Source: a virus. From it: 52,247 bases of DNA. Shown piece by piece: positions 9,472 to 49,793 of this stretch (its first letter is position 1; each line of letters begins with the position of its first letter). The translations under genes were made by a program, and so were the position numbers. The notes under the pieces are model-generated. The model saw only the letters and a program-made list of their open reading frames with translations, ran no database searches and had not been told where the DNA came from. The stretch is taken from IMG/VR virus record IMGVR_UViG_3300022747_000235, positions 1 through 52,247 of that record; one strand, written 5' to 3'.

Positions 9472-12032
9472 TAAACGACCTCGTCGGCGTAAAGCCGCAA
9501 TTGGCTGACGATGGGCGTATAAGACGCGTCCTTCGTCGTGAGATGCGCCCGCGCCTGAACCGCGCGCGCCTCGATTTCATGGGCGTCGAGACGACCCCAG
9601 GGGCCCCAGGTTGGGGTTTGTGTGGGATCGTCGTCAGTCTCGCGGATCTCGAAGAGCACATCGATTTCTGCACCGGCCGCGCCGTCAAAATCGGCCCATG
9701 TGTCCATCGAAGCCGTTCGCGCATCGATCCGGTCGTTGAGCGCGAGCGCAGCCACGCCAATTTCCGAGCGCAGGCGCACGCGTTTCACCGCGCCAAGGTC
9801 CAGCCCTGCGGCGAAGCTGTACTGCCCCGCCATCGCGGTCACCTGCGTGACGCCATTTGCCGTTGCCGTGGCGAGCGTCAGGTTGGTGCCGCTGACCGCC
9901 AGGCCGGATTTCGCGCCAACAAAGCCGGGATCGGCCTGCAAAAAGCCCAAGGGCGAGAAGGCCAGAACCTGCGCCCCCTTGGTCGAGATCCGGACCTCCG
10001 GCCCTGCACGCCCGCCACTGTCCTCGGCCCTGAGGAGGTAAGTGCCGGGTTTGAGCGGCACGACGGCAATCGCCTCTCCCCCACCCACCCGGTCCATCGA
10101 ATAGCTGTCGGCCCAAGTGGCGGTCGCCTCCTTGGAATGCCGGATCACGATATTGCCGCCCACCCGCACATCCGGATCGGCCGAGCGCGTCCATTTGAGA
10201 ATGGCGAGCCCGCCTGCTGTTTGCAGGGTCACATTCTCCAGCCCCTGTGGCGGCGCGGTTAGACCGAGGATTTCCACTGCAGTTTCTTGCCACGGCGAAG
10301 AGACGCCAAGCACCGAGATCGCCTTGACCCGGAAGTCCCAAAGCCCCGGCGCAATGTCGCGGACCTCTAAGCTCAAACCCTCTGTGCGGCCATAATCCAG
10401 CCACTCCCCGGCAAGCCAGTCTGCCGCCTCGGAACGACGGGCCTGCAACTGATACGCGGCCACAAAGCCAGACGGAGCAGCCGCCCAAGTGATCTTGGCC
10501 AGAACCTTCAACCCACCGCCATCGCGCGTGACATAGATCTCTTCCGTGACCTGCGGCGGTCCCGGGGCGGGGATGTCATGAGCCCTCGGCAGCGCCGTCC
10601 TCGGGGCCGCGGCGTAGATCTGTTCTTCAGACGCCGTCCAATCATAGACCAAGGGTGAGGTCTCGCGCAGCACAAGTTCCGGCAAGAGAAGCACGCCATC
10701 GCCCGAGGCCGTCAGATCAAGGCTCACGCCTTGCACCTCGAAGGGTTTGGCGGCAAAGCCCCAGCGCGCATAGGACAGCGTCACCACATCGCCCACCGTT
10801 GCCGCCCAAGCCGAGAGCTTGCCAGAAAGCCGCACCGTCATCTGCCGCCGCGCGCGTTCAAGCTCGATTTTCGCCAACCGCTGCGCCATCGCGGCCGAGA
10901 TGGTGAACGGCAGCGAGATGTCGCGCCATTTCTGCGCGCCGCCGTCTTCCGCAAGATAGACGTCCGACGCGTAAGCCGGGAAGTCATCCGGCTGCCAGTC
11001 ATTCTCGGGGCTGACAAACTGCCCCCGAACCGCATTGAAGTTCGATGACATCGTCACCCGTGTCGCTAGCGTCAGCCCGCCCTCACGGACATGATCGGCC
11101 GTCAGCGCCAGATCGGGTGCCCGCCACGCACCTGCATAGAGGCGCCAGGACCCACCCGAGAAGGCGCAGCGCCCGGCGAAAGACGTGAGCATCCCCTCGA
11201 TAATGGTCTTCGGGGGCTCGGACAGCGTGATCACCCCGTTGCAGGTGTAGCGGGGCTCCGTGCCGCCACCCGCAAGCAGAACAACCTCATCGCAGATGTT
11301 GGCGGCCTCAACGAGCGACATCTCATCGATCCCGTCGGCCTCGCCGATCCGTGCCCCCACGCCCCAGGTCGGATTGGCCATGTAATCGGCCAGACAAAGG
11401 GCTGCGTTCTCCGAATAGCCCGCGCGTTGCGTCCGTGGATCCCAGATGTCGTCCTTGCCCTCGAGATCGACCGTGATGTTCGGGATGCCGCCCGGGAAGG
11501 CGTCCTGGTCATAGGTGAGCCGCAGTCGGATGGCTGCACAGCCCCGCAGGCGGTGGTTTTCTGTCCATTTGTCCGGCAGCGCCGCCTTCAGACCCGCGAA
11601 GGCGGTCTGATCGGCCGCCCCGAGTTTCTTCTCAACAAGAACTTTTCCGGCCCAGCGGCCCTGCGCAGCGCCGGCCGCATTGAGAGCCATCTCGCCTTCA
11701 AAAAAGATGGCACCAATGGATTTGATGCGATGCGCGGCCAGCACGACGACGAGATCGAGATATTGATCCGCCGGCCCCGAGGCATGCAGGAAGACAATGA
11801 CCCCGCCCTTGCGGGTGCGGCCATAGACGAGATCCCGCGGCACCACCGGCTCGCGGATCGTGACCGTGCGGTTTGCAAGCGTTGCTTGCGGTTTCGGCAT
11901 CAAGGCCTGTGCCGCATAGGACAAGAGGAGCGTGCCGCCGATCCGGAGAAGTGCCGCCCCAATCCCGCCCGCGGCCAATACCCCGCTTATCGCCCCCGCG
12001 ACCGCGGTGACGGCTGTCACGATGAAAGGCAT
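9471..12032 (-). CDS. Tail tip / host-specificity protein (J-like)
   Basis: This 853-aa protein has a hydrophobic N-terminal segment, then VPRDLVYGRTRKGGVIVFLH, a motif typical of the tail-hub proteins of lambda J and gene-transfer-agent type, and fibronectin-III-like regions in the second half (APGPPQVTEEIYV..., APPQGLENVTL...). J-like proteins form the tail tip and contact the receptor. The order (small tail proteins, NlpC/P60-like protein, J) is canonical. Confidence 0.8.
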   Translation of the reverse strand: MPFIVTAVTAVAGAISGVLAAGGIGAALLRIGGTLLLSYAAQALMPKPQATLANRTVTIREPVVPRDLVYGRTRKGGVIVFLHASGPADQYLDLVVVLAAHRIKSIGAIFFEGEMALNAAGAAQGRWAGKVLVEKKLGAADQTAFAGLKAALPDKWTENHRLRGCAAIRLRLTYDQDAFPGGIPNITVDLEGKDDIWDPRTQRAGYSENAALCLADYMANPTWGVGARIGEADGIDEMSLVEAANICDEVVLLAGGGTEPRYTCNGVITLSEPPKTIIEGMLTSFAGRCAFSGGSWRLYAGAWRAPDLALTADHVREGGLTLATRVTMSSNFNAVRGQFVSPENDWQPDDFPAYASDVYLAEDGGAQKWRDISLPFTISAAMAQRLAKIELERARRQMTVRLSGKLSAWAATVGDVVTLSYARWGFAAKPFEVQGVSLDLTASGDGVLLLPELVLRETSPLVYDWTASEEQIYAAAPRTALPRAHDIPAPGPPQVTEEIYVTRDGGGLKVLAKITWAAAPSGFVAAYQLQARRSEAADWLAGEWLDYGRTEGLSLEVRDIAPGLWDFRVKAISVLGVSSPWQETAVEILGLTAPPQGLENVTLQTAGGLAILKWTRSADPDVRVGGNIVIRHSKEATATWADSYSMDRVGGGEAIAVVPLKPGTYLLRAEDSGGRAGPEVRISTKGAQVLAFSPLGFLQADPGFVGAKSGLAVSGTNLTLATATANGVTQVTAMAGQYSFAAGLDLGAVKRVRLRSEIGVAALALNDRIDARTASMDTWADFDGAAGAEIDVLFEIRETDDDPTQTPTWGPWGRLDAHEIEARAVQARAHLTTKDASYTPIVSQLRLYADEVV

Positions 12033-13670: not shown

Positions 13671-16130
13671 TCAGATTCCCTGACCTCTGCGCCGGCCATC
13701 GGCCACGCTTTCCTTCGCGATGCGGGCGATCTCCGGGATGGCCGCCCGCAATTTTGCATTGATCTGCTCGGCCACACCCATCTGCGCCCCACGCGCGTCG
13801 ATGTTGACCGTGACACCCGCGCCCGCCGTGCTACCCCGGCCATAAGTGGCCGCCTCGCGACGCGAGAGCACCCGCTCCCCGCGCTGCAAGATGGCTGGCA
13901 CCTCATCGGGTTTGAGACCCGCCCAGCCGCCCTCATGCATCCGCGGTGCGCCTGCGAAGGCAAGGGCGGGGACAGATCGGGAGGAGCCAGTTACGCCGAC
14001 CAGGGCGCCATTATGCGCTACGAGGCCATCCAGAAAGCTCCCGCCGCCAAAGGCAAAGGACAGCGCATCTGCAATCGGCCCGAGCACCGCGCGTTTGAAC
14101 GAGAGCACCGCAAGATCGGCAAGAATCGAGGAGATGAGCGATCTGAAGTCGAACTTGCCGGTGGTGACAAACTGCCGGAAGGCGTTTTCCGCCGAGGAGA
14201 AGGCGGAGGTCAGAGTTTCTCCAAGGCCCTTGCCCCAATCCATCGCGCCCTTGGCATAGTCGGACAGCGACTTTGTGACCGCAGCCCAGCCGGTGGCAGC
14301 GTCATCCGCGGCCTTCTTCACAGCCCCTCCGGCCCCGCCGGCAGATTTGCCGGCAGTGTCCAATCCGTCCGACAGCGCGTCGGCGGCAGTGGTTGCCTGG
14401 TCCAAGGCCGCATCCCCCTCGGTGCCCGCGCCGAAGATCGCAGATTTCAGCGCGGCCCAAGCGGTCATCGGCTTTGCGGCCGCCTCCGACAGCATGCCCG
14501 CCGCCTCAGCATAGCCATCCGCCCGGGTGCGCGCCGCCGCTGCCATGCCGCCGAAGAGGTCAGGCGTATCCACATAGGTCTTGCCCATCGCCGCCTGGAA
14601 GGCATCGGCTGCCGCTGTGCCCGCGGCCGTTGCCGCCCCTGCGAAGGGATTGGCAATGCCGCCAAGATCGACGGCATCAAGCGTGCCGATCTTGATGCCG
14701 CCCTCACCCGTGGCCCAGTCAGGCAAGAGATCGAGCGCCGCGTTCAAGCCTTCGACGAAGCGGTTGATCCGGGTGACAACGGCATTCAGCATTGCCTCGA
14801 CGCCGTCGATCAGACCGTTCGCGGCTTGATAGGCAAAATCGCCAATCGCTTGCGGCAGCGCCCCCCAGATTGCCTTCACCGCATCAAAGGCACCTTGGAA
14901 GCTGCCCACGGACGAATTGCCCCAGCCCACCACGGCGGCGAGCGCCGATTGCAGCCCGTCATAGATCCCGGCCTGCGCGCTGGCCCAGCCCGCCTCGACT
15001 CGGGACCAAGACGCTGTCGCTGCCAGGGCCAGGCGGTTCCAGGCCTCCGCCGCCACATCGCGCAAGATGCCAAAGGCCGCGCCAACCCCGCCGACTTTGC
15101 CGACAAGCTCAGTAAACTGATAGACGAGTTCCCCCGCACCAACGATCAGCGCACCGATGCCGGTGCGAATGAGCGCCCCGCGCAAAACCACGAGCCCGGT
15201 CGCAAGCCCTTTGACCGAAAGCGCGGCCGCAGCCAGCCCCGCCACCCAACGACCCGCCATCAGCGCGGCGAATGTGCTGGCATAGGTTGCAAGCCGCCCC
15301 AGATTGTCGAAGATCCCGGTGATCGCCATTCCAAGTGGGCCGGTGCCGCGTGCCATGTCGGCAAGTGTATTGGCCACCGCTTCCAGCGCTGGCGCAACCG
15401 CCGCCGTCAGACGGTTCGTGAGGCCGAGCCAGATCAGGCTCAGCTTGGCAATCGCATCCCCCGTCCGTTCGATCTGGACCGCATCGGCAGCACTGACCGC
15501 CACGCCAAAGTCGCGCACATCCTTCGCGGCCTCGCGCAAGGTCGCGGGATCGACCCGCAGGAAGGCCAAGGCCGCCTTGTCGCCAAAGAGGTCCGAGGCC
15601 ACCGCCGCGCGCTCGGCCTCCGGGACAAGCCTGTTCAGCGCCTCTTGAATGGCGACGATCCGCTGATCCAAAGGCAAGGCCTGCAGATCCGTCGCCGTCA
15701 GGTTCAAACGCGCCAGCGCCTTCACCGCCGTGCCCGACCCCGTCGCCGCCTCAGAAAGCCGCGTCGTCAGCTTTTTTGTCGCCTGTTCGATTTCTCCCAG
15801 CGAGACACCGGCCAACTCCCCCGCCCAGGTCAAGACCTGCAGACTTTCCACCGTTGTGCCAAGCGAGGCCGCCATATCCGCCTGTGCCCCGATCACCTCG
15901 AGGCCCGACTGGATCATTGCAACTCCGGCCGCCGTGGCTGCAGCGGTCAGCGCGGCCAGGGCAATCCCCGCCTTGCTGGCAAAGCTCGTGAGCCGCGCAT
16001 TGGCCGCGGTCATCTCCGACGAGAGCCGACCAAAGCCGCGTGCGCCTGCTTCGCCGATCCCTTCGAGCTCGGCCCGCACCTGCCGGCCGCCGACAGCGAC
16101 AAGCCGGACGGAGACCTTCTTTTCTGACAT
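13671..16130 (-). CDS. Tail tape measure protein
   Basis: The 819-aa protein starts MSEKKVSVRLVAVGG, has coiled and alanine-rich segments (GFGRLSSEMTAANARLTSFA), long hydrophobic stretches near 290-330, and ends with TVNIDARGAQMGVAEQINAK...IARIAKESVADGRRRGQGI, a common tape-measure C-terminus. It sets tail length and is injected with the DNA. It lies directly downstream of the frameshifted chaperone gene, as expected. Confidence 0.9.
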   Translation of the reverse strand: MSEKKVSVRLVAVGGRQVRAELEGIGEAGARGFGRLSSEMTAANARLTSFASKAGIALAALTAAATAAGVAMIQSGLEVIGAQADMAASLGTTVESLQVLTWAGELAGVSLGEIEQATKKLTTRLSEAATGSGTAVKALARLNLTATDLQALPLDQRIVAIQEALNRLVPEAERAAVASDLFGDKAALAFLRVDPATLREAAKDVRDFGVAVSAADAVQIERTGDAIAKLSLIWLGLTNRLTAAVAPALEAVANTLADMARGTGPLGMAITGIFDNLGRLATYASTFAALMAGRWVAGLAAAALSVKGLATGLVVLRGALIRTGIGALIVGAGELVYQFTELVGKVGGVGAAFGILRDVAAEAWNRLALAATASWSRVEAGWASAQAGIYDGLQSALAAVVGWGNSSVGSFQGAFDAVKAIWGALPQAIGDFAYQAANGLIDGVEAMLNAVVTRINRFVEGLNAALDLLPDWATGEGGIKIGTLDAVDLGGIANPFAGAATAAGTAAADAFQAAMGKTYVDTPDLFGGMAAAARTRADGYAEAAGMLSEAAAKPMTAWAALKSAIFGAGTEGDAALDQATTAADALSDGLDTAGKSAGGAGGAVKKAADDAATGWAAVTKSLSDYAKGAMDWGKGLGETLTSAFSSAENAFRQFVTTGKFDFRSLISSILADLAVLSFKRAVLGPIADALSFAFGGGSFLDGLVAHNGALVGVTGSSRSVPALAFAGAPRMHEGGWAGLKPDEVPAILQRGERVLSRREAATYGRGSTAGAGVTVNIDARGAQMGVAEQINAKLRAAIPEIARIAKESVADGRRRGQGI

Positions 16131-16178: not shown

Positions 16179-16852
16179 TCAGGTGAGGCCGCCAGCGTCG
16201 GCCTGCATCGCTTCATTGATCTTGCGCACCATCACCGCCTCAATGGGCGGCAAGAGCTCCGCAACCGCCAGCGCCGGGATACCGAGCGCCGCCCCGAGGA
16301 CCAGTGCGGCCCCCATATCCCAACCGATCACCGCGCCGGGAATGAGACGCAATTGCCCGCCAAGACGCTGAACGAGGTCCCAGACCTGGGCGCCTTCCCA
16401 AGTCTGCGGGCGGTTCAGCCGTGCGGGACACTCGGGACAGACGGGTCCGCAGGCGGCGCAATAGCCGCCGCCCCCGCCGAACTCCCAATCGGCAAGGGCG
16501 ATGAGACGTTTTTTTCGGCATCCAAGAACAGGCCTGTTGCAACATAACGGGTCTGGAAGGCCTCAAAGACCGGCCAGAGATCGAGAAGCGCGTCGATTGC
16601 CTCGGGGCTGACCGGCAAGGCCTCCCCCGTGGCATCGCCAACGCCGTCCCAGTCGAGGATCGCGCGCCGCGCCAGCGCCTTGGCCATAGCAAGGGCGGCC
16701 TCTTCGGGCGTCGTCCCTGCGGTGAGGGCGGCAATTGCGGGATCCGCGCGGCTGGCGACCATCAGCGCCGTGGTCAGCGGGCGGAGTTTCACGCGCAGGC
16801 CGGGGAGGAACTCGCACCAGAACGGTGCGCTGGAAAGATCAAGGGTCAGCAT
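16179..16852 (-). CDS. Tail assembly chaperone fusion (gpGT-like) made by -1 frameshift
   Basis: Translating past the A AAA AAC heptamer at 16514-16508 in the -1 frame gives an open frame to TGA at 16179. The fusion is 115 zero-frame plus 109 shifted residues, 224 aa in all. The shifted part starts RLIALADWEFGGGGGYC, then ACGPVCPEC (two CxxC-like pairs), and ends NEAMQADAGGLT. In lambda-like phages this ribosomal frameshift product, with the short form, recruits tape measure and tail tube proteins. I read the shifted frame directly from the sequence. Confidence 0.8.
16415..16852 (-). CDS. Tail assembly chaperone, short form (gpG-like)
   Basis: From ATG 16852 the zero frame gives 145 aa (MLTLDLSSAPFWCEFLPGL), ending shortly after the slippery site. 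The start is preceded by GAGAGGATC. A helical middle part (EEAALAMAKALARRAILDWDG) fits the chaperone family. The tail tube gene lies upstream and the tape measure downstream, the conserved order for G/GT genes. Longer frames starting upstream would run through the tail tube gene. Confidence 0.8.
   Translation of the reverse strand: MLTLDLSSAPFWCEFLPGLRVKLRPLTTALMVASRADPAIAALTAGTTPEEAALAMAKALARRAILDWDGVGDATGEALPVSPEAIDALLDLWPVFEAFQTRYVATGLFLDAEKNVSSPLPIGSSAGAAAIAPPADPSVPSVPHG
16508..16514 (-). promoter_or_regulatory. Programmed -1 ribosomal frameshift heptamer A AAA AAC
   Basis: In the zero frame the codons read GAA AAA AAC, which places A AAA AAC exactly in X XXY YYZ register. This is a very efficient bacterial -1 slippery heptamer. 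The -1 frame stays open for 109 codons afterwards, while the zero frame stops after 30 more. Confidence 0.8.
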
Positions 16853-16868: not shown

Positions 16869-17807
16869 TCAATAGGAGGTGACAGTGTTGACAAGAATGG
16901 CGGTACACAGGCGGGCGGGGCTTGCCGCCTTGGCCGCCTGCCAGTCGAATGTGGCCTGAATGCCTTGCGGACCCGGGATCTCGATCCTGGGCCGTGGCAG
17001 ATAGACAGCATGCGCCGTGAAGCTGAAGCTGGCATCGGCCCCAAGGCTCCAGCCGAAAACCAATTCGCAAGGTGTCCCATCCATCGCTTGGGTGATCAGC
17101 GTGGTGTCGGCAAAGCGGGCCTCGATCTTGCCGGTCAGCGCCGCCATGCCGGGATCAACCCCCTCGATCTTGCCATCCGCGCGGATGGTCTCGATCCGGT
17201 CGAGGCCATTCGAGTAGGTCACCTCAGCCGAGATGACATTGCCAAGCGCCACCCCGTTGCGGCTAATCGATCCGTTGAAGTGGCCAAAGCGCTGCAGCGA
17301 CAGCGATGTGGGCGTGCCTACGGCCGTGGCAGCAGCAACGGTTTCGCCTTGGGCCACCAGGCGGGCAGTCGCAGTCAGAAGCCCCGAGCGCGCCATCTGC
17401 CAACTGAGCTGATCGCAAACGCAGCCCGTATACATCGCGTAGCGCGGCACCTCCGGCATCGCCGTCTCAATGGCCATGCTTGGAAGCGACCAGGCCCCCG
17501 ACTGGAACGTATGGGTCTTCGGCGTGGTGCCGGTGGTGGTCGGGGCCCCGAAGGCGGCCTTCAGCCAGAGGCCGAAGTTCTCGACATCAAGCGGCACAAC
17601 GACATCGCCATCCGCCGTCACCGCGTCCTTGATCGGGGCCAGCGGGTCACGCCCCTGGCCCAAAAGTTCCGAGGCGATCAGCGGCTGCTCGGAGCCGAGC
17701 GTCGTGCTGGCGAAAGGCACCGTGCGATAGCCCGTCGTCGGGGCGGTGCCATAGGTGGACTCGAACGCAAGCGCCATCTGCGCCCGCGCCCCATGGGCTC
17801 GTGCCAT
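16869..17807 (-). CDS. Major tail tube protein
   Basis: The 312-aa protein (MARAHGARAQMALAFESTYG) has TTLGSEQPLIASELLGQGRD and the beta-rich core DAVTADGDVVVPLDVENFGLWL typical of tail tube proteins. It lies between the tail terminator and the chaperone, as in lambda. A C-terminal PRPRIEIPGPQGIQATFDWQ segment is also typical of this group. Confidence 0.8.
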   Translation of the reverse strand: MARAHGARAQMALAFESTYGTAPTTGYRTVPFASTTLGSEQPLIASELLGQGRDPLAPIKDAVTADGDVVVPLDVENFGLWLKAAFGAPTTTGTTPKTHTFQSGAWSLPSMAIETAMPEVPRYAMYTGCVCDQLSWQMARSGLLTATARLVAQGETVAAATAVGTPTSLSLQRFGHFNGSISRNGVALGNVISAEVTYSNGLDRIETIRADGKIEGVDPGMAALTGKIEARFADTTLITQAMDGTPCELVFGWSLGADASFSFTAHAVYLPRPRIEIPGPQGIQATFDWQAAKAASPARLCTAILVNTVTSY

Positions 17808-34667: not shown

Positions 34668-34831
34668 AATGGTTGAAACCTTCGATGTTGTGTGATCTGC
34701 TATTCGGGACAACGCTCGAGCAACAGGAACAAGCCAGCCAAAGTGGTATGTTTCATTCGGTCCCTGGAAGAACTGGAAGCCCCAATTCCCTCAGAAACGA
34801 GTTGTGGCTCGAGGTTGCTGCCCGGATTTGA
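34664..34831 (+). pseudogene. Possible truncated third gene of the MBL-membrane operon
   Basis: An ATG at 34664 overlaps the membrane-protein stop (ATGA). The 55-codon frame MKWLKPSMLCDLLFGTTLEQ... runs into the 3' end of hsdM on the other strand from 34753 on. The first ~30 codons could be the start of a third gene cut off by insertion of the restriction operon. It may equally be chance. Confidence 0.3.
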
Positions 34832-36393
34832 TCTTCGATTGTGATCAATTTCTGCTGCGTTGCACCTAGATCGATTTCAGCTTCGGCAACAGCGTTGGTG
34901 ATGTATCGGGAGATGTTAAGATTGAAGCCCTCCTCAGCGATGCGCTCCATGGTCACGCGCTTCGAGTAGCGCTCCTCTTCCTTGCGGAACTGGTACGTCT
35001 CGATGATCTTCTGAATGTCGTTCGGCTTGCCATCTAACCCTTCGCGCAGGCGATTCTGCCGTTTGCCTTTTTCATAGTGCTCGGCCGCGTTGATGAAGAG
35101 CACATCATCCGGCTTCTTGCACTTCTTCAGCACGAGGATGCACACCGGGATGCCAGTCGAATAGAAGAGGTTCGCGGGTAGGCCGATGACCGTGTCAATA
35201 TGACCATCCTTCAGCAGCTTTGTACGGATGCGCTCCTCAGCCCCACCCCGGAACAGCACGCCGTGCGGCAGAATGATGGCCATTACGCCCTCATCCTTCA
35301 AGTAGTGGAAACCGTGAAGTAGGAAGGCGAAGTCTGCGGCGGATTTGGGCGCCAGCCCATGGTTTTTGAACCGTACGTCGTCGCCCATCGCTTCAGTCGG
35401 CTCCCAACGGAGGCTGAAGGGCGGGTTGGCCACGATCGCGTCAAACGAGGGTTTCTTGGCAGGGTTTAGCTCTCGCAGGATGTCCCAGTCATTGTTCAGC
35501 GTGTCGCCATGGTAGATATCGAATTCCGTATCTTTCACGCCGTGCAGCAGCATGTTCATGCGAGCGAGGTTATAGGTGGTGATGTTCTTTTCTTGCCCGT
35601 AGATCTTCCCGATGCCGTGCGGTCCCAAGCACTTTCGCACGTTCAACAACAGCGAGCCGGAGCCACACGCGAAGTCGAGCACACTGGAGAGGCGCTCCTT
35701 CTTTCCGGTTGCGGGCTCCTGGCTGTCCAACGTCACGATCGCGGAAAGGATGTCAGACACCTGTTGCGGGGTATAGAACTCGCCTGCCTTCTTTCCGGAA
35801 CCGGCGGCAAACTGGCCGATCAGATATTCGTAAGCGTCGCCCAGCGCGTCGACATCGGATGAAAAATCGGCGAGCCCATTGGCAATCTCGGTGATGATGG
35901 CGCAGAGCTTGGCGTTGCGCTCAACGTAGGTCCGGCCAAGCTTTTCAGAGCCAAGATTGATTTCCGAAAAAAGGCCCCCGAACGTGCTCTGGAAGGACTC
36001 GTTCTCGATATATTTGAAGCCTGCCTGCAGCGTGTTCAGCAGATCGTCGCTCTGGGTGCGCGCCATGTGGGCGATGCTGGTCCAGATGTGTTCCGGCTTG
36101 ATGACGTAATGCGCCTTGAGGCGCATCTGCTTTTCAAAAGCTGAAACATCGTCAGGGTTTTGCGCGTACCACACGGAAAGCGGCGAGCGCCCGCTATTGC
36201 CGATCGTGTTGGGATCCGGGTAGTCGCGCCCGAGCTCCTTCCGGGCGGCCATCTCGTAATTGTCCGAGAGATAACGCAAAAATAGGAAGGACAGCATGTA
36301 ATCGCGGAAATCGCCCGCGTTCATCGCTCCGCGCAGCGTGTCGGCGATGTTCCAGAGCGTCTTGCCCAGTTGCTTTTGGATTTGGTCGTTCAT
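34753..36393 (-). CDS. hsdM: Type I restriction-modification system methyltransferase subunit
   Basis: The 546-aa product has N-terminal HsdM helices (LWNIADTLRGAMNAGDFRDY), GEFYTP at 204-209, SAM-binding motif I DFACGSG (240-246) and motif IV NPPF (323-326), all expected of an N6-adenine type I methylase. It is last in the operon, after a PrrC-like gene whose stop it overlaps by four bases (ATGA). Confidence 0.9.
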   Translation of the reverse strand: MNDQIQKQLGKTLWNIADTLRGAMNAGDFRDYMLSFLFLRYLSDNYEMAARKELGRDYPDPNTIGNSGRSPLSVWYAQNPDDVSAFEKQMRLKAHYVIKPEHIWTSIAHMARTQSDDLLNTLQAGFKYIENESFQSTFGGLFSEINLGSEKLGRTYVERNAKLCAIITEIANGLADFSSDVDALGDAYEYLIGQFAAGSGKKAGEFYTPQQVSDILSAIVTLDSQEPATGKKERLSSVLDFACGSGSLLLNVRKCLGPHGIGKIYGQEKNITTYNLARMNMLLHGVKDTEFDIYHGDTLNNDWDILRELNPAKKPSFDAIVANPPFSLRWEPTEAMGDDVRFKNHGLAPKSAADFAFLLHGFHYLKDEGVMAIILPHGVLFRGGAEERIRTKLLKDGHIDTVIGLPANLFYSTGIPVCILVLKKCKKPDDVLFINAAEHYEKGKRQNRLREGLDGKPNDIQKIIETYQFRKEEERYSKRVTMERIAEEGFNLNISRYITNAVAEAEIDLGATQQKLITIEDQIRAATSSHNSFLRELGLPVLPGTE

Positions 36394-37619
36394 TGTGCTG
36401 GTGCTTCCTGGGGGACGGGCGCAGGCGCCGGGGCGGGATGCGGGGCCGGAGCGGCGCCCGGCAGGTGAAACTCGAACCGCGTGAGGAACTCGCGCAGGAT
36501 GCGGCGGAAAAGCTCCGTGTTGTCCTCGCCCATTTCGGTCGGCTCATGGATGGCGTAGGCGCCGTGGCTCAACAAGTTCAGGGCTCGGTTGAACAGCGCC
36601 CGGTCTTCATCGTTGTCCAGCGCTTTCAGGCAAAAGGCGATGCTCGGGTGCCCGAAGAAAGACGCTGTCTTCTCCATAACACTGCGCAAGGCATTGAAGT
36701 GGAAGGTGTAGAGCTTCCCCTTCTTCGGATCCGCCGCACGCTGCAATTCGGCGAGCGTCGCCACATGATGAAAGAAGGGCGTGTCTTCCGTCGCCTGAAG
36801 CGTGTAGGTCCCGTCGCCACTTGGCCGGTGCAGGAAATAGCGGCGATGGTCGACCGAAGGCGCGTCATCGATTTTCCGACCGACTTCGTTGCACATGACG
36901 TTGAAGAACAGCGCATGGTGCGAAGAGAAGATCACCTTGATCGGGGCAGGCTTGCCCTCGGCGTCTTTCCGTGTGGCCGCCCGACGGAGGAGCTTGGCTA
37001 GGTCGCAGGCGACGGAAATCGCGTTGTTGTCGTCCAGCGACGAGATCGGATCGTCGATATAGAGATACTTCTTCCCCTGATAGGATGCATGCCCATCCAG
37101 CATCCGTTCGCAGATGGCCATGAAAATGCACCAGATGAAGATATTCTGTTCGCCCCGCGACACCTTGATGTTGGCCTCGCCGCCCTTGTGGAAGCTGACG
37201 AAATCCGGCTTGGAGATGGTATCCTTGCCCTGCTGAACCTCCTTGTAGGTGAAGTCGAACTCGAAGTCGGCGTAACGGGAAAGGTAGCGGGCGATGGTTT
37301 CGTCCAGCGCGAGTTCCGTCATCGCGTTGAAGAAGGACGACTTCTCGTTCAGTTGCAGGCGGCGCACGCTGTCGCCTTCAAGGTCGTTCTCCCAGACGAA
37401 TAGATCCTCGGTGAAGGCGTTGAAGTACAGCGTGTCGGGTGTGCCGGTCGGGTTCTTCTTGTTCTTGCGCTTGCCTGCGTCCTTGAACTCCATTGAAAGG
37501 CGGGTCTTGCCGGTGCGGTTATAGGCATAGATCAAGACCAGCGACGCTGCCCCGGTCGGGTTGTTCAGATCGTCACGCAGCCGCGCCACTAGAGTCTTCA
37601 GGTTCTTGTAGGTGCTCAT
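36390..37619 (-). CDS. PrrC-like anticodon nuclease (ABC-type ATPase fused to ACNase)
   Basis: The 409-aa protein (E. coli PrrC: 396 aa) has an ABC-type ATPase core: P-loop YAYNRTGKTRLS (31-42), signature SRGEQN (154-159), Walker B LYIDDPISSLDD (186-197) and H-loop FSSHHAL (231-237). The C-terminal part has R312-x3-E316 (RSVMEKTASFF) and H352 (LLSHGAYA), matching the R320/E324/H356 catalytic triad of PrrC. PrrC is held silent by a type I restriction enzyme and cleaves tRNA-Lys when the enzyme is inhibited. The gene sits between hsdS and hsdM with 4-base overlaps to both. Confidence 0.75.
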   Translation of the reverse strand: MSTYKNLKTLVARLRDDLNNPTGAASLVLIYAYNRTGKTRLSMEFKDAGKRKNKKNPTGTPDTLYFNAFTEDLFVWENDLEGDSVRRLQLNEKSSFFNAMTELALDETIARYLSRYADFEFDFTYKEVQQGKDTISKPDFVSFHKGGEANIKVSRGEQNIFIWCIFMAICERMLDGHASYQGKKYLYIDDPISSLDDNNAISVACDLAKLLRRAATRKDAEGKPAPIKVIFSSHHALFFNVMCNEVGRKIDDAPSVDHRRYFLHRPSGDGTYTLQATEDTPFFHHVATLAELQRAADPKKGKLYTFHFNALRSVMEKTASFFGHPSIAFCLKALDNDEDRALFNRALNLLSHGAYAIHEPTEMGEDNTELFRRILREFLTRFEFHLPGAAPAPHPAPAPAPVPQEAPAQ

Positions 37620-38932
37620 GCGTCATCCTCCCCGACTTGGGGGAAAAGCTGCTGCATCAGCCCCTTCTTGTGGGTCTTGAAGGTTTCGAGTTTTCCGGTC
37701 TCGGCGGCGATGAGGTCGTCGAGGGAGGTGAGGCAGTCAGCGATGCGCTGCTGTTCGGGGCGAGACGGTGCCATGACCACGAGTTCCAAGACGCTTGGCT
37801 TGGAAATGTTTTTCATCGAGCCGGAACTACCGCCTGCAAGACCAGATAGCGCTGCTCGCCCCTTTTCTGAGCCCAGAAGGAGCGCAACAAAACGCATGTC
37901 GGCTCCGGGTCTAGGTTTGGCAGCCCATAGACGATCAGGAAGAAACAAGTTTGGATAGTCGTCCTTTACATATGCGTTAGCTCCCACAAGAACTGGCGTA
38001 TTCATGCGGCTAATGATCACTGTATCTGCGCGGACCGGCTCTTTCACGCGCTCAATTTCTTCCTCTTCAAACACAACTTTGTTCTCAAGTGGATCGAAAA
38101 CTCCATTTGTGACAGCGCTTGTCTTTAAGACACCAATCTCATCACTCATCGCGGGCCGATCACCCGAATTGACGCTCACACCAGCATCAAGCGCGCTTAC
38201 CAACTTAGAAAGTGGAATTTCCGCCCACTCCCCCGCTCCCTCGAACTCGGGGAAGCGGAGGCGGGGTTGGGTTTCGCCTTCCTGGGGGAAAAGTTGCTGC
38301 ATCAGGCCCTTCTTGTGGGCCTTCAACGCCTCCACCTTCCGCCCCTGCGCGGCAATCAGTGCGTCCGCCGAGTCCAGAAAATCGGCGATCTTCTGTTGTT
38401 CGGGGGGGCTCGGAAGTAAGACTCTTAGCTTTAAAAAGTCGGTCTTGCTCATCACGCGGTTTCTGCCCGCACCACCTGGCGAGATCAAACCCAGCTTGTA
38501 GACAAACTGCTTGTCGACGATCTTGAACTTGAAGAACTCCGGCAAAGCCCGACCATTAGAAAAAGTGTAGGTCGGGAAGCGATGCGACACCAAAGCTCCA
38601 TCATCGGAGCTGCCTGCAATTGCTATTGCGCCTTCCCAGGCGAAGGTAATGTTCACAATTAAATCTTCGCGCTTAACCTCAAAGAGTACATCCATGGCGT
38701 TTTTCGCCGGATCTTCCTGTTCCTTTAGGAAAGTTCCTTTGCCATGACTGCGCAATCCAAGGCCTGTGTAAATCTCGCTCGGCTTCGTTCTGTTGCGCAT
38801 TACGGGCGTTAGAAAGCTGGCGAGTGACATCTCTTGCCACTCGCCAGCATCGCGAAACTCCGGAAAACGGTGCTTGGGCATCAAAGCCGAGCCAGCGACC
38901 GATTTGACAGATGAATTCTTCTTACTGCTCAT
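37616..38932 (-). CDS. hsdS: Type I restriction system specificity subunit
   Basis: The 438-aa product has two target-recognition domains, each followed by the conserved spacer helix (PPEQQKIADFLDSADALIAAQ and RPEQQRIADCLTSLDDLIAAE) and KGLMQQLFPQ. The two repeats and linkers give a bipartite recognition sequence that cannot be predicted here. It overlaps hsdR by 11 bases and the PrrC-like gene by four. Confidence 0.9.
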   Translation of the reverse strand: MSSKKNSSVKSVAGSALMPKHRFPEFRDAGEWQEMSLASFLTPVMRNRTKPSEIYTGLGLRSHGKGTFLKEQEDPAKNAMDVLFEVKREDLIVNITFAWEGAIAIAGSSDDGALVSHRFPTYTFSNGRALPEFFKFKIVDKQFVYKLGLISPGGAGRNRVMSKTDFLKLRVLLPSPPEQQKIADFLDSADALIAAQGRKVEALKAHKKGLMQQLFPQEGETQPRLRFPEFEGAGEWAEIPLSKLVSALDAGVSVNSGDRPAMSDEIGVLKTSAVTNGVFDPLENKVVFEEEEIERVKEPVRADTVIISRMNTPVLVGANAYVKDDYPNLFLPDRLWAAKPRPGADMRFVALLLGSEKGRAALSGLAGGSSGSMKNISKPSVLELVVMAPSRPEQQRIADCLTSLDDLIAAETGKLETFKTHKKGLMQQLFPQVGEDDA

Positions 38933-41900
38933 AGGCGCTCAGCCCCGAAATCTCGCGCCCACCGGCGCGCTTGAGCAGCAACGGCATCAGGTCGGCCATC
39001 AGGTCCAGTTCCTTCACCCGCCGTGCTTTCCAGTTTAGACTGAGGGGTTCCATCAGATCGGTCAGCGCCTCGCCGTCAAAGATCATGCGTTGCAGGATGG
39101 TGTCGACAAAGCCTTGTAGCGCCTCGATCGCCAGCCCGTGCTTGCCTGCGATGCCCGCCAGTTCCACCGCGTTCTTTTCCGCCTTGAAGCGGCTATAGCC
39201 CTCGCGGATGGCCTTTTCGCTGAGGCCCTCGCCCGCCATGAGGGTATTGATGTAGGCCGCGATATCCTCGCGCTCGTCCATGAACTTGGCGTCAGACTGA
39301 ATCAGGCCGATCAGCTGTTCGCGGTTCATCTTCTGTTTGTCGGGGCTCGCCTCGGAATAGCGGGCGATCAGACCCATTATGTAGTCATAATCGATGACGG
39401 CCGAGGCGAAGAGGATGAATTCGAAATCCAGTTGGTCGGCGTCTTGGCTGGGCTTATCCGCGGCCGTGCCTTGCTGGGCCCTAAGGCGCTGAGCGGTTTC
39501 CAGATAGGCGCCGCGGAAGCCAAGCAGGTTGTCGCGTGGCAGAACCTGTTCGATGCTATTGCGGTTTTCGTCGGTCAGGTCGGTGTACTGGTCAAGCTGG
39601 GTCTTGAGCCGCTGGACCTCTTTGAAGTGTTCAATGAACGCCGCACGGGCCGCGTCGCCCTTGAGGTTGGGAACCGCTTCCGGGACGAATTCGAGGCCTT
39701 GCGATTTCATGAAGGTATCGAGCTTCTGGACCGCGGTATCCAGTTTCTGGATGACCACGGGGGCCTTGTCGACCAGCCAGATTTCACGGGCCTTTTCGGC
39801 GGCGGCTTCGCCTGAGAACAGCGCGATGGCGGCATCGACCGCGCCCTGCTGCTGGCGGAAGTCAAGGATATTGCCATAGGGCTTGGTGGCGTTCAGCACC
39901 CGGTTCGTGCGCGAGAAGGCCTGGATCAGCCCGTGATGCTTGAGGTTCTTGTCGACGTAGAGGGTGTTCAGGAACTTGGAGTCAAAGCCTGTCAGCAGCA
40001 TGTCGACGACAATCGTGATGTCGATCTTGTGGTGCGGCTGGTTGGGGTAAGCCTTGCGAAGGTCGGCATCCGGCCATTGCTGATCCTTGATGCGTTTCTG
40101 CACGTCTTGGTAGTACAGGTCAAATTCGCCGATCTTGTGGTTGGTGCCGTACTGGGCGTTGTAGTCAGCGAGGATGGCCCTCAGGGCCTCCTTCTTCTTT
40201 TCCGGTTCAACCGCGTTGTCTTCCTTCTCCTGCGGCAGGTCTTCCTGAATTTGCTTCACATCAGGATCGCCCTCGGCGGGCGGGGAGAAGACGCATGCGA
40301 TGTTCAGCGGCTGGAAGCTGGGATCCGTTGCCAGCTTTTCGGCCTGGATCGTTTTGAAGAGGTTGTGATACTCGATGGCGTCATTGATCGACGAGGTGGC
40401 GAGCAAGGCGTCGAAACGGCGCTGACCAGTGGCCGCGTCGTGTTTCGCGAGGATCGCATCGATAACCGCCCGCTTGGCCAGCGGTTCGCCCGGCTTCGGC
40501 AGGCTTTTGCCTTGGGGCTTGAAATAGTCGACATGAAACCTGAGGACGTTTCCGTCCTCGATGGCGTGTGTGATCGTGTAAGTGTGAAGGCGCTGCTGGA
40601 AGAGGTCTTCCGTCGTCTTCATGCTGGCCTGAGTGTCTTCGATCTTCTGCTGCGCGGCGTTCTGATCGAAGATGGGCGTCCCAGTGAAGCCGAAGAGCTG
40701 GGCGCGCGGGAAGAACTCCTTGATGGCCTTGTGGTTCTCGCCGAATTGCGAACGATGGCACTCGTCGAAGATGAAGGCGATGCGCTTTTCGCGTAGGGGT
40801 TCCAGCTGCTCTTTGAAGCTCTTCTTGCCGTCCTTCTTCTGCTGCTTGTTGCGTTTGCTGTTCTCGTCCAGCGCGAGGCCAAGCTTCTGGATCGTGCAGA
40901 CGATGACCTTGTCGGCATAATCGTCCGACAAAAGGCGCCGAACTAGAGACGCCGTGTTGGTATTCTCCTCGACGCAGCCTTCCTGGAACTTGTTGAACTC
41001 CTCGCGCGTCTGGCGATCGAGGTCCTTGCGATCCACGACGAAGAGGCATTTCTCGATGTCGGGATTGTCCTTCAAGAGCGTTGACGCCTTGAAGGAGGTG
41101 AGCGTCTTGCCGCTGCCTGTCGTGTGCCAAATGTAGCCGTTGCCACAGTCCTGGGCAATGGAGTCGATAATCGCCTTCACCGCGTAGACCTGATACGGCC
41201 GCATCATCAGCAGTTTCTGCTCGCTCGCGACCAGAACCATGTACCGGCTGATCGTCTGGCCGAGGGTGCACTTGACAAGGAATGTTTCGGCGAAGCTGTC
41301 GAGATGGACGATCTTCTTGTTGTCGACGTCCGCAAACTCATAGGCTGGGAGAAATCGCTCTTCGGCATTGAAGGCGAAATGGCGCGCATTGTTGTTCGCG
41401 AAGTAAAAGGTCCGATCGCGGTTGCTGACGATGAAGAGCTGAAGGAAGCACAGGATGGTCTTCGTATAGCCGTTCCCAGGGTCGTTCTTGTAATCGACGA
41501 TCTGCTCCATGGCACGACGAGGGCTTATGCCGAGGGTCTTCAGCTCGATCTGTACAACCGGAACACCATTGATCAGGAGAATGACGTCATAGCGGTGGTG
41601 ACTGTTGTCTGTGTTGATACGAAGCTGGTTGATCACCTCGAAGGAATTCTTGCACCAGTCCTTGATGTTCACGAGCGTGTAGTTCAGCGGCGTGCCGTCA
41701 TCGCGGGTGAAGCTGTTTCGCTCGCGCAGGGTCCGTGCAGCCGTGAAAACATCTGGCGTGACAATTTCATCGTGCAGCCGCTGAAACTCTCCATCGGTGA
41801 GCTTGACGCGATTCAGGGCTTCGAACTTCTTCCTAAAGTTATCCTCCAAGGCGACGCGATCTCGGATGTCGGGTCGATACTCGTACTTGAGGTCCTCTAG

Positions 41901-41945
41901 CTTCGCGACAAAGGCTTCTTCAATATCGCGCTCGGCATGGCTCAT
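38922..41945 (-). CDS. hsdR: Type I restriction system endonuclease/translocase subunit
   Basis: The 1007-aa product (EcoR124-like size) starts with MSHAERDIEEAFVAKLEDLKYEYRPD and the nuclease core RYDVILLINGVPVVQIELK. The translocase motifs follow: Walker A TTGSGKT, DECHRSQFGE, GFTGTPIF, and DMLLTGFDSKFLNTLY. It is the first gene of the hsdR-hsdS-prrC-hsdM operon. A 7-bp inverted repeat lies 70 bases upstream. Confidence 0.9.
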   Translation of the reverse strand: MSHAERDIEEAFVAKLEDLKYEYRPDIRDRVALEDNFRKKFEALNRVKLTDGEFQRLHDEIVTPDVFTAARTLRERNSFTRDDGTPLNYTLVNIKDWCKNSFEVINQLRINTDNSHHRYDVILLINGVPVVQIELKTLGISPRRAMEQIVDYKNDPGNGYTKTILCFLQLFIVSNRDRTFYFANNNARHFAFNAEERFLPAYEFADVDNKKIVHLDSFAETFLVKCTLGQTISRYMVLVASEQKLLMMRPYQVYAVKAIIDSIAQDCGNGYIWHTTGSGKTLTSFKASTLLKDNPDIEKCLFVVDRKDLDRQTREEFNKFQEGCVEENTNTASLVRRLLSDDYADKVIVCTIQKLGLALDENSKRNKQQKKDGKKSFKEQLEPLREKRIAFIFDECHRSQFGENHKAIKEFFPRAQLFGFTGTPIFDQNAAQQKIEDTQASMKTTEDLFQQRLHTYTITHAIEDGNVLRFHVDYFKPQGKSLPKPGEPLAKRAVIDAILAKHDAATGQRRFDALLATSSINDAIEYHNLFKTIQAEKLATDPSFQPLNIACVFSPPAEGDPDVKQIQEDLPQEKEDNAVEPEKKKEALRAILADYNAQYGTNHKIGEFDLYYQDVQKRIKDQQWPDADLRKAYPNQPHHKIDITIVVDMLLTGFDSKFLNTLYVDKNLKHHGLIQAFSRTNRVLNATKPYGNILDFRQQQGAVDAAIALFSGEAAAEKAREIWLVDKAPVVIQKLDTAVQKLDTFMKSQGLEFVPEAVPNLKGDAARAAFIEHFKEVQRLKTQLDQYTDLTDENRNSIEQVLPRDNLLGFRGAYLETAQRLRAQQGTAADKPSQDADQLDFEFILFASAVIDYDYIMGLIARYSEASPDKQKMNREQLIGLIQSDAKFMDEREDIAAYINTLMAGEGLSEKAIREGYSRFKAEKNAVELAGIAGKHGLAIEALQGFVDTILQRMIFDGEALTDLMEPLSLNWKARRVKELDLMADLMPLLLKRAGGREISGLSAYEQ

Positions 41946-48461: not shown

Positions 48462-49721
48462 TTACGCGGTCCTCGCCAGCGGTTCGCCGGAATGTACCAA
48501 CCTCGGCCGGGCGCGCATGATATCGGCGACCTGGTTGACGCCATCGCGCAGCGGCGTGTCCATCAGATGCGCATAGCGCTGCGTGGTCGTCATTTGGGTG
48601 TGCCCGAGCAGGCGGCCAATCATTTCCAGGGAGGCGCCACTGCTGACAAGCAAAGAGGCAAAGGTGTGGCGTAGGTCGTGGATTCGTACCCCCGCAATGT
48701 CGGCCTCGCTCTGGATGCGTACCCAGAACCTGCGGATTTCTTGTACGGGTTGGCCGGGCGTGTCACCGGGAAACAGCCAGGGGCAGCCCTTTGGGACTAC
48801 AAGTTGACGCTGACGCACCAAAGTGGCGACGTCCGCCGAAATCGGGACGCGATGCACCTTGCGCTGCTTGGTCGTGGCGGCCTGCTTCGACCAACTGCCA
48901 TATTCGAGGTTGAAATCCTCAAAGCGCGCGGCCTTCACCTCGCCCACACGGGCACCGGTCAACATGCACATGCGCAGGATCGAGGCTGCGCGCTGGTCTT
49001 CAGCCTTGTCGAGCGCCTGCGCCAAGCGCTCGATCTCTTCCAGGCTGAGGAAGCGTTCGCGGAAATTCTCGGGATGCTGGTAAAACCCTTGGAAGGGGTT
49101 GTCCTTGCGCCATTCCCATTCGATGGCGAGGTTGAACATTTTGCGCATCACTTGCCCGACCCGGTTGGCGCGCATTGGGGTTGGCTTCCAGCCTTGAAGT
49201 TTGCGCGCGCGATTGTTGGGTTTCAGCTTGTGCGGACGGGGGCGGCCTTTCGCGACCTCTATGAGGAATTTTGCTGCGTCCTGCTTGGTGATTTCTGTGA
49301 CCAGCCTGTTGCCCCAATCTGGCTCAACCAGCTTGCGCATCATGGATATCTGATCCGAGCGGGATCGCGCCGCCAGCCGGGGCAGGTGTTCGGCTATAAA
49401 CCGTTCAATCAGATCGCTCACCCGAGGCGCCGTGCGGGTTTGATCCCGTTCACTGCGCGGGTCACCTTCAGCGTCAACCATGCGGCGCAGCTCTTTCGCC
49501 CGTTCGCGCGCAGCACTCACCGACCATGCCGGCCAAGGGCCGATCCGATAGCGTTTCTGCCGCCCGTTCGCCCTGTAGTCGAAAATGAACGAGCGGCTTC
49601 CCGAACGATAAATCCGCAGAGCAAAGCCCGCGATCTCGCTATCGCTGATCAGGTAATCGCGGCCGTCGATCGGCTCGGCGTCTCGTACAAGTTTCTCATT
49701 CAACTTCAACTGGTTGCCCAT
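48462..49721 (-). CDS. Tyrosine recombinase, phage integrase
   Basis: The start at ATG 49721 (MGNQLKLNEKLVRDAEPIDG) is preceded by AGGGAG. The 419-aa product has the arm-binding N-terminal domain and the catalytic residues R258 (TGARVGE), H348 and R351 (HDLRHTF), H374 (LLGHTQ) and Y383 (QRYAHL). It catalyses integration into the tRNA-fMet-type site 430 bases away. Its promoter region carries the operator shared with the excisionase-like gene. Confidence 0.9.
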   Translation of the reverse strand: MGNQLKLNEKLVRDAEPIDGRDYLISDSEIAGFALRIYRSGSRSFIFDYRANGRQKRYRIGPWPAWSVSAARERAKELRRMVDAEGDPRSERDQTRTAPRVSDLIERFIAEHLPRLAARSRSDQISMMRKLVEPDWGNRLVTEITKQDAAKFLIEVAKGRPRPHKLKPNNRARKLQGWKPTPMRANRVGQVMRKMFNLAIEWEWRKDNPFQGFYQHPENFRERFLSLEEIERLAQALDKAEDQRAASILRMCMLTGARVGEVKAARFEDFNLEYGSWSKQAATTKQRKVHRVPISADVATLVRQRQLVVPKGCPWLFPGDTPGQPVQEIRRFWVRIQSEADIAGVRIHDLRHTFASLLVSSGASLEMIGRLLGHTQMTTTQRYAHLMDTPLRDGVNQVADIMRARPRLVHSGEPLARTA

Positions 49722-49793
49722 GTTCAGTTCTCCCTTGAACATCTCATGACGCGTAGATTCGGCGCACAATCAAGTTCAACCACGCCCAGCGCA

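Follow-up and report, generated by a model that had tools for sequence, protein, structure and literature searches.

A gene on the minus strand at 16852-16179 of the window, the whole 52,247-nucleotide stretch of viral DNA analysed here, very probably encodes a tail assembly chaperone in two lengths. As judged from comparison with related sequences, the longer product would be made by a -1 frameshift on an A AAA AAC heptamer, with probable stimulation by a stem-loop. A programmed -1 frameshift for a tail chaperone had already been proposed in the first-pass annotation. This proposal is supported by a match to the chaperone family phrog_313, by the heptamer found in relatives, by a switch of coding frame at the heptamer and by the joined CDS in the record of Rhodobacter phage RcKemmy.

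Reading frames, neighbouring genes and conservation of the junction

The zero frame opens at ATG 16852. Its first 115 codons, up to and including the AAC of the heptamer (16508..16852, minus strand), encode an N-terminal, G-like domain that is common to the short and the long product. The heptamer occupies 16514-16508 on the minus strand and lies in the exact slip register, GAA AAA AAC (16516-16508). In the zero frame a tail of 30 codons plus stop (16415..16507, minus strand) ends at TGA 16417-16415, giving a product of 145 aa. After a -1 slip the frame instead stays open for 109 codons from 16508 (including YCAACGPVCPEC) until TGA 16181-16179, so that the predicted product has 115+109 = 224 aa. 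This T-like extension (16179..16508 with its stop, minus strand) is present only in the 224-aa product. The register, the 109 open -1 codons to the TGA at 16179 and the zero-frame stop after 30 codons, at 145 aa, agree with what the first-pass annotation had read, and so does its placing of the gene between those for tail tube and tape measure.

Profile matches identify these neighbours as the tail tube protein upstream (16869..17807, minus strand; PF18906 Phage_tube_2, E 2.8e-60) and the tape measure protein downstream (13671..16130, minus strand; phrog_8462 tail length tape measure protein, E 6.4e-178). The tape measure gene starts 48 bases past the TGA of the long product. The zero-frame protein itself matches phrog_313 'Tail assembly chaperone' (E 9.6e-22). 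An AlphaFold2 model of the N half has a pLDDT of 88.8; among solved folds it has only two matches, the better being 2ob9, the tail assembly chaperone of HK97 (Z 4.9, a modest value), and many of its named viral fold matches are tail chaperones. The fold scores of both halves (Z 4.9; best viral E 0.0021 and 0.015) are modest and provide support, not proof.

Taken alone, the heptamer and the open -1 frame would be weak evidence, since 10% of the 6380 in-gene -1 slips tested in the window stay open for at least 109 codons; the length of the open frame was dropped as an argument for frameshifting on this account. The G+C content is 0.62, and long open -1 frames are common at such values. The window has three copies of AAAAAAC, roughly as many as expected by chance. 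An in-register GGGTTTG near 10376 (minus strand), within a gene for a J-like tail fiber, has 229 open -1 codons after it; at this G+C content that is probably chance. It is conservation in relatives that places the frameshift site far above chance.

Among the relatives gathered first, the two halves abut in a -1 relation at the heptamer in 153 of the 157 loci that hold both. The set was then enlarged with prophage loci from bacterial genomes and with further viral contigs. The -1 relation, with its junction at the heptamer, is seen in 312 of the 315 loci scored, which count non-independent events, the relatives having been gathered by similarity and sharing common ancestry. The heptamer is AAAAAAC in 308 of these 315 loci, GGGAAAC in two and AAAAAAA in two; the corresponding numbers among 243 distinct loci are 237, two and one. 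With the heptamer present in almost every relative, the absence that the first-pass annotation had named as an argument against frameshifting was not encountered.

Three loci depart from the -1 relation. One (L131) has eight As at the site and its halves are fused in frame; another (L174) has Ns at the heptamer site. In the third (L144) the heptamer is normal and the best match to the second half lies in another frame, probably owing to an indel. A further locus (L096) has a broken heptamer and a second half that is cut short. The L131 gene (5001-5666 of its record) is a natural in-frame fusion of both chaperone halves. Downstream of it the tape measure frame enters unrelated helicase-like sequence, so that this locus may be a prophage remnant. 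Aligning the L131 fusion jointly with N and C halves from unfused loci gave a misalignment, which has been left out.

The chaperone is otherwise mainly alphaproteobacterial, but homologues with AAAAAAA at the site and the same local gene layout are found in two cyanophage records, from Synechococcus (L162) and Nostoc (L163) phages. The former is Synechococcus phage Sc-Yong805-1; its record places a site-specific tyrosine recombinase XerD where the tail tube gene would be expected (1719-2657), probably in error. A search of plasmid records yielded only two, without usable annotation.

The fusion could also be read without any ribosomal shift if RNA polymerase slipped on the seven consecutive As of the window site, GAAAAAAAC, and so produced a mixed pool of mRNAs; L131 shows that one extra A yields an in-frame fusion. 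Such transcript slippage is nevertheless very unlikely, because relatives that use GGGAAAC, without a long homopolymer run, have the same junction, as tandem tRNA slippage predicts. Moreover, a run of seven As is on the short side for RNA polymerase to slip efficiently, and the stem-loop described below lies 7-8 nt from the heptamer, a position typical of ribosomal stimulators. Slippage by the ribosome is thus the preferred reading.

GAA AAA AAC is exact in 214 of 217 loci in which both halves are complete, against an N-half background where GAA accounts for 37% of Glu codons and AAA for 26% of Lys codons. Upstream of the heptamer, variability is highest at the third zero-frame position (1.08 versus 0.59 and 0.36 bits), and downstream it is highest at the third -1-frame position (0.77 versus 0.36 and 0.34 bits). 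The frame of the third-position signal therefore switches at the heptamer. In the 30 codons where the frames overlap, dN/dS amounts to 0.30 when read in the -1 frame and to 1.63 in the zero frame, which indicates that the zero-frame tail is not the constrained part; in six relatives this tail is reduced to one codon. Over the -1 extension dN/dS is 0.27, and protein-level constraint on this frame begins with the first codons past the heptamer. These substitution patterns show protein-level selection on both frames, with the heptamer as their meeting point.

Elsewhere in the window, a Type I restriction-modification set is found at 34753-41945 on the minus strand (HsdM 34753-36393, HsdS 37616-38932, HsdR 38922-41945), with a gene for a 409-aa AAA_13 protein (PF13166) at 36390-37619, between HsdM and HsdS. 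We take this HsdM/AAA_13/HsdS/HsdR arrangement to be reminiscent of PrrC-type anticodon nuclease loci. A separate DNA methylase gene (PF01555; 30959-32287, minus strand) is within a few kb of the gene for the large terminase subunit, and there is an integrase gene at 48462-49769. The Radical SAM protein gene (PF04055; 85-1365, minus strand) at the edge of the record is perhaps host DNA.

The stem-loop downstream of the heptamer

A GC-rich stem-loop of 11-12 bp follows 7-8 nt past the heptamer, a spacing typical of ribosomal frameshift stimulators. In the window it spans 16469..16500 on the minus strand, with up to 12 bp between the arms 16500-16489 and 16480-16469 and a loop of 8 nt, as deduced from folding, codon choice and pairing. 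The 65-nt stretch of the window that contains it folds at a z of -3.9, and no shuffle was equally stable.

Conserved residues are encoded by the arms of the stem, and few pairs vary on both sides. It could be, then, that the stem-loop is a mere by-product of the conserved ALADWxFGGG peptide and has no effect on frameshifting, an objection that concerns the role of the hairpin only. We regard this as unlikely, since, compared with synonymous recodings of this peptide, 111 diverse relatives average a z of -2.4, and controls stay near zero (-0.7 to 0.2). Codon choice in these 111 loci is also strongly skewed toward pairing. Codon 12 is GGG in 102 of them, compared with a background of 14% of Gly codons. 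CTG is absent from Leu codon 5 and GCG from Ala codon 4; in the background these make up 54% of Leu codons and 44% of Ala codons. Finally, a strong hairpin is retained in relatives with the other heptamer, GGGAAAC (L161, L151 and L339).

Pairing was scored in 67 aligned sequences. There, 96.6% of cells pair, as opposed to 43-61% with the helix slid, and both the covariation score and the number of paired cells lie above all 500 shuffles. Compensatory double changes are few (4 cells in 3 pairs). Codon choice and pairing across the relatives show that the stem-loop is under selection at the RNA level. Because this strong codon choice keeps it in place, the stem-loop is probably a frameshift stimulator. 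A role as transcription terminator was considered and ruled out, no T run following it. Searched over the whole window, Rfam gave no gathering-level match; the region itself has a single hit, at chance level. Neither this conserved stem-loop nor the DUF7697 identity of the second half had figured in the first-pass annotation.

According to a review, some tailed-phage frameshift sites seem to lack stimulators, and in a survey of E. coli a hairpin was judged relevant in only one of five phage clusters (PMC4066793). Since a selected stem-loop accompanies this predicted tail chaperone frameshift, control of the short:long ratio by the heptamer alone becomes a testable question.

The DUF7697 extension and its cysteine module

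The -1 extension matches DUF7697 (PF24752; E 1.3e-25) with 89.5 bits, far above the curated cut-off of 27 that defines membership of the family, and it also matches phrog_11212. Both families are 52-55 aa long (52 aa for the DUF7697 model) and both are of unknown function. A search of open-licence papers for DUF7697 found nothing. The AlphaFold2 model of the C half reaches a pLDDT of 89.9, this being the only confident one of five models (the others, 61-69). Among viral folds it matches 'tape measure chaperones' best, and the tail chaperone of Loki appears lower in the list. Sequence searches of the C half against solved structures gave no convincing match (best E 0.33), and fold comparison with the PDB gave scattered matches only (Z up to 3.4).

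Residues 17-27 of the extension (16428..16460, minus strand) form a CxxC-x3-CxxC module, CAACGPVCPEC. CxxC pairs with this or a close variant of the spacing are found in 125 of 125 distinct relatives (x3 in 121), and Cys 17, 20, 24 and 27 are invariant in an alignment of 27 sequences that includes the cyanophage homologue. The CxxC-type pairs pointed out in the first-pass annotation are therefore real, and no examined relative within the close group is without them. Distant DUF7697 loci retain the first pair with altered spacing thereafter. The four-cysteine module is probably a metal site.

The brevity of the DUF7697 and phrog_11212 families might mean that the second frame constitutes a small gene of its own, started internally and producing an unfused DUF7697 protein. 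The L162 record indeed annotates a distinct gene of 77 aa, and in the window the -1 frame has start codons at codons 52, 59 and 64. However, from the upstream stop (16565) up to codon 52, which is past the cysteines, this frame is free of ATG, GTG and TTG. The cysteine region is thus beyond the reach of ordinary internal initiation, every possible start being located downstream of the conserved cysteines. As starts are absent from this region, as the frame is constrained from its first codons past the heptamer, and as the halves are naturally fused in L131, a separate gene is extremely improbable and the extension is best taken as part of a frameshift fusion.

In 15 of 16 further alphaproteobacterial DUF7697 loci, half of the 16 being from genomes already in the relative set, AAAAAAC or GGGAAAC is located exactly at the start of the domain. 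The DUF7697 model, which spans just the end of the predicted frameshift product, begins where -1 start codons first appear, from which we infer that it was built from truncated gene calls. The first half of the domain, cysteines included, escapes gene finders.

A second Pfam family appears to be related. In Enterobacter phage F20 (T1-like), DUF1799 (PF08809) stands behind PF08748 Phage_TAC_4, with AAAAAAC at the junction. By profile comparison the DUF7697 core aligns with DUF1799 at a probability of 96.5% (E 7.7e-10), and a survey of the phylum found AAAAAAC or GGGAAAC in register, and open to the domain, in 21 of 21 DUF1799 loci. Searching P0002 against DUF1799 (PF08809) gave no match at E up to 1, hence none at the curated threshold. 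The DUF1799 loci are without CxxC-type pairs, and structure at their sites is weaker (mean z -1.0 versus -2.6 by the same measure). In one paper DUF1799 figures as an unexplained neighbour of a chaperone gene. On these alignments and junctions, DUF7697 and DUF1799 are best read as frameshift-made T domains of tail chaperones, which would provide a likely function for two uncharacterised Pfam families.

Proposed mechanism and comparison with known systems

We propose that most ribosomes stay in the zero frame and make the 145-aa G-like protein. A minority would slip by -1, with lysyl- and asparaginyl-tRNA on A AAA AAC, to make the 224-aa fusion. The extra 109 residues of the latter would constitute a T-like DUF7697 domain with its four-cysteine, probably metal-binding, module. 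The ribosome is probably held up by the GC-rich stem-loop 7-8 nt past the heptamer, so that it slips more often. By analogy with lambda, coating of the tape measure protein would fall to the G part and recruitment of tail tube subunits to the few T parts. The ribosomal nature of the event, the slip rate, the role of the hairpin, metal binding and the binding partners are what we infer in this scheme.

The two-product tail chaperone is a well-known kind (lambda gpG/gpGT; PMC5009743). In lambda, HK97 and P2 (Xu, Hendrix and Duda 2004, as cited in PMC5009743), two overlapping frames likewise precede the tape measure gene. Chaperones of the lambda type use an X_XXY_YYZ slip giving a short G-like and a long GT-like product, as proposed here; the HK97 chaperone fold also resembles that of the N half. 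The present gene differs from the lambda type in its A AAA AAC heptamer and in its DUF7697 T domain with a Cys4 module.

Direct homologues, with the Cys4 module and the hairpin, are present in the Rhodobacter phages RcKemmy, RcBaka, RcKai and others. The halves of the RcKemmy protein are 37% and 56% identical to those described here, and its record already annotates a joined CDS over both frames; its heptamer is GGGAAAC, unlike the AAAAAAC of the window. The Phage_TAC_4 and DUF1799 pair of Enterobacter phage F20 has the same A AAA AAC at its junction and its T core aligns with ours, but pairs of this type are devoid of cysteine pairs and have weak downstream structure. In Acinetobacter phage Loki, AAAAAAC has been reported at the junction of gp12 and gp13 (PMC5313236). 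There the motif directly adjoins the gp12 stop, whereas here the zero-frame stop comes 30 codons later. The -1 signals of dnaX and of IS elements share with our site a slippery heptamer, a short spacer and a GC-rich stem-loop; these are other genes, and the dnaX heptamer is A_AAA_AAG.

In open-licence papers, a search that is weak evidence, we found no description of a selected stem-loop at such sites, of the Cys4 module or of the DUF7697/DUF1799 identity. On balance, we lean toward the view that these mainly alphaproteobacterial phages and prophages form a group in which the frameshift is set by a stem-loop and the T domain has an obligate metal site, with DUF7697 and DUF1799 as frameshift-encoded T domains. 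Its design would be distinct from that of lambda-type systems that lack stimulators.
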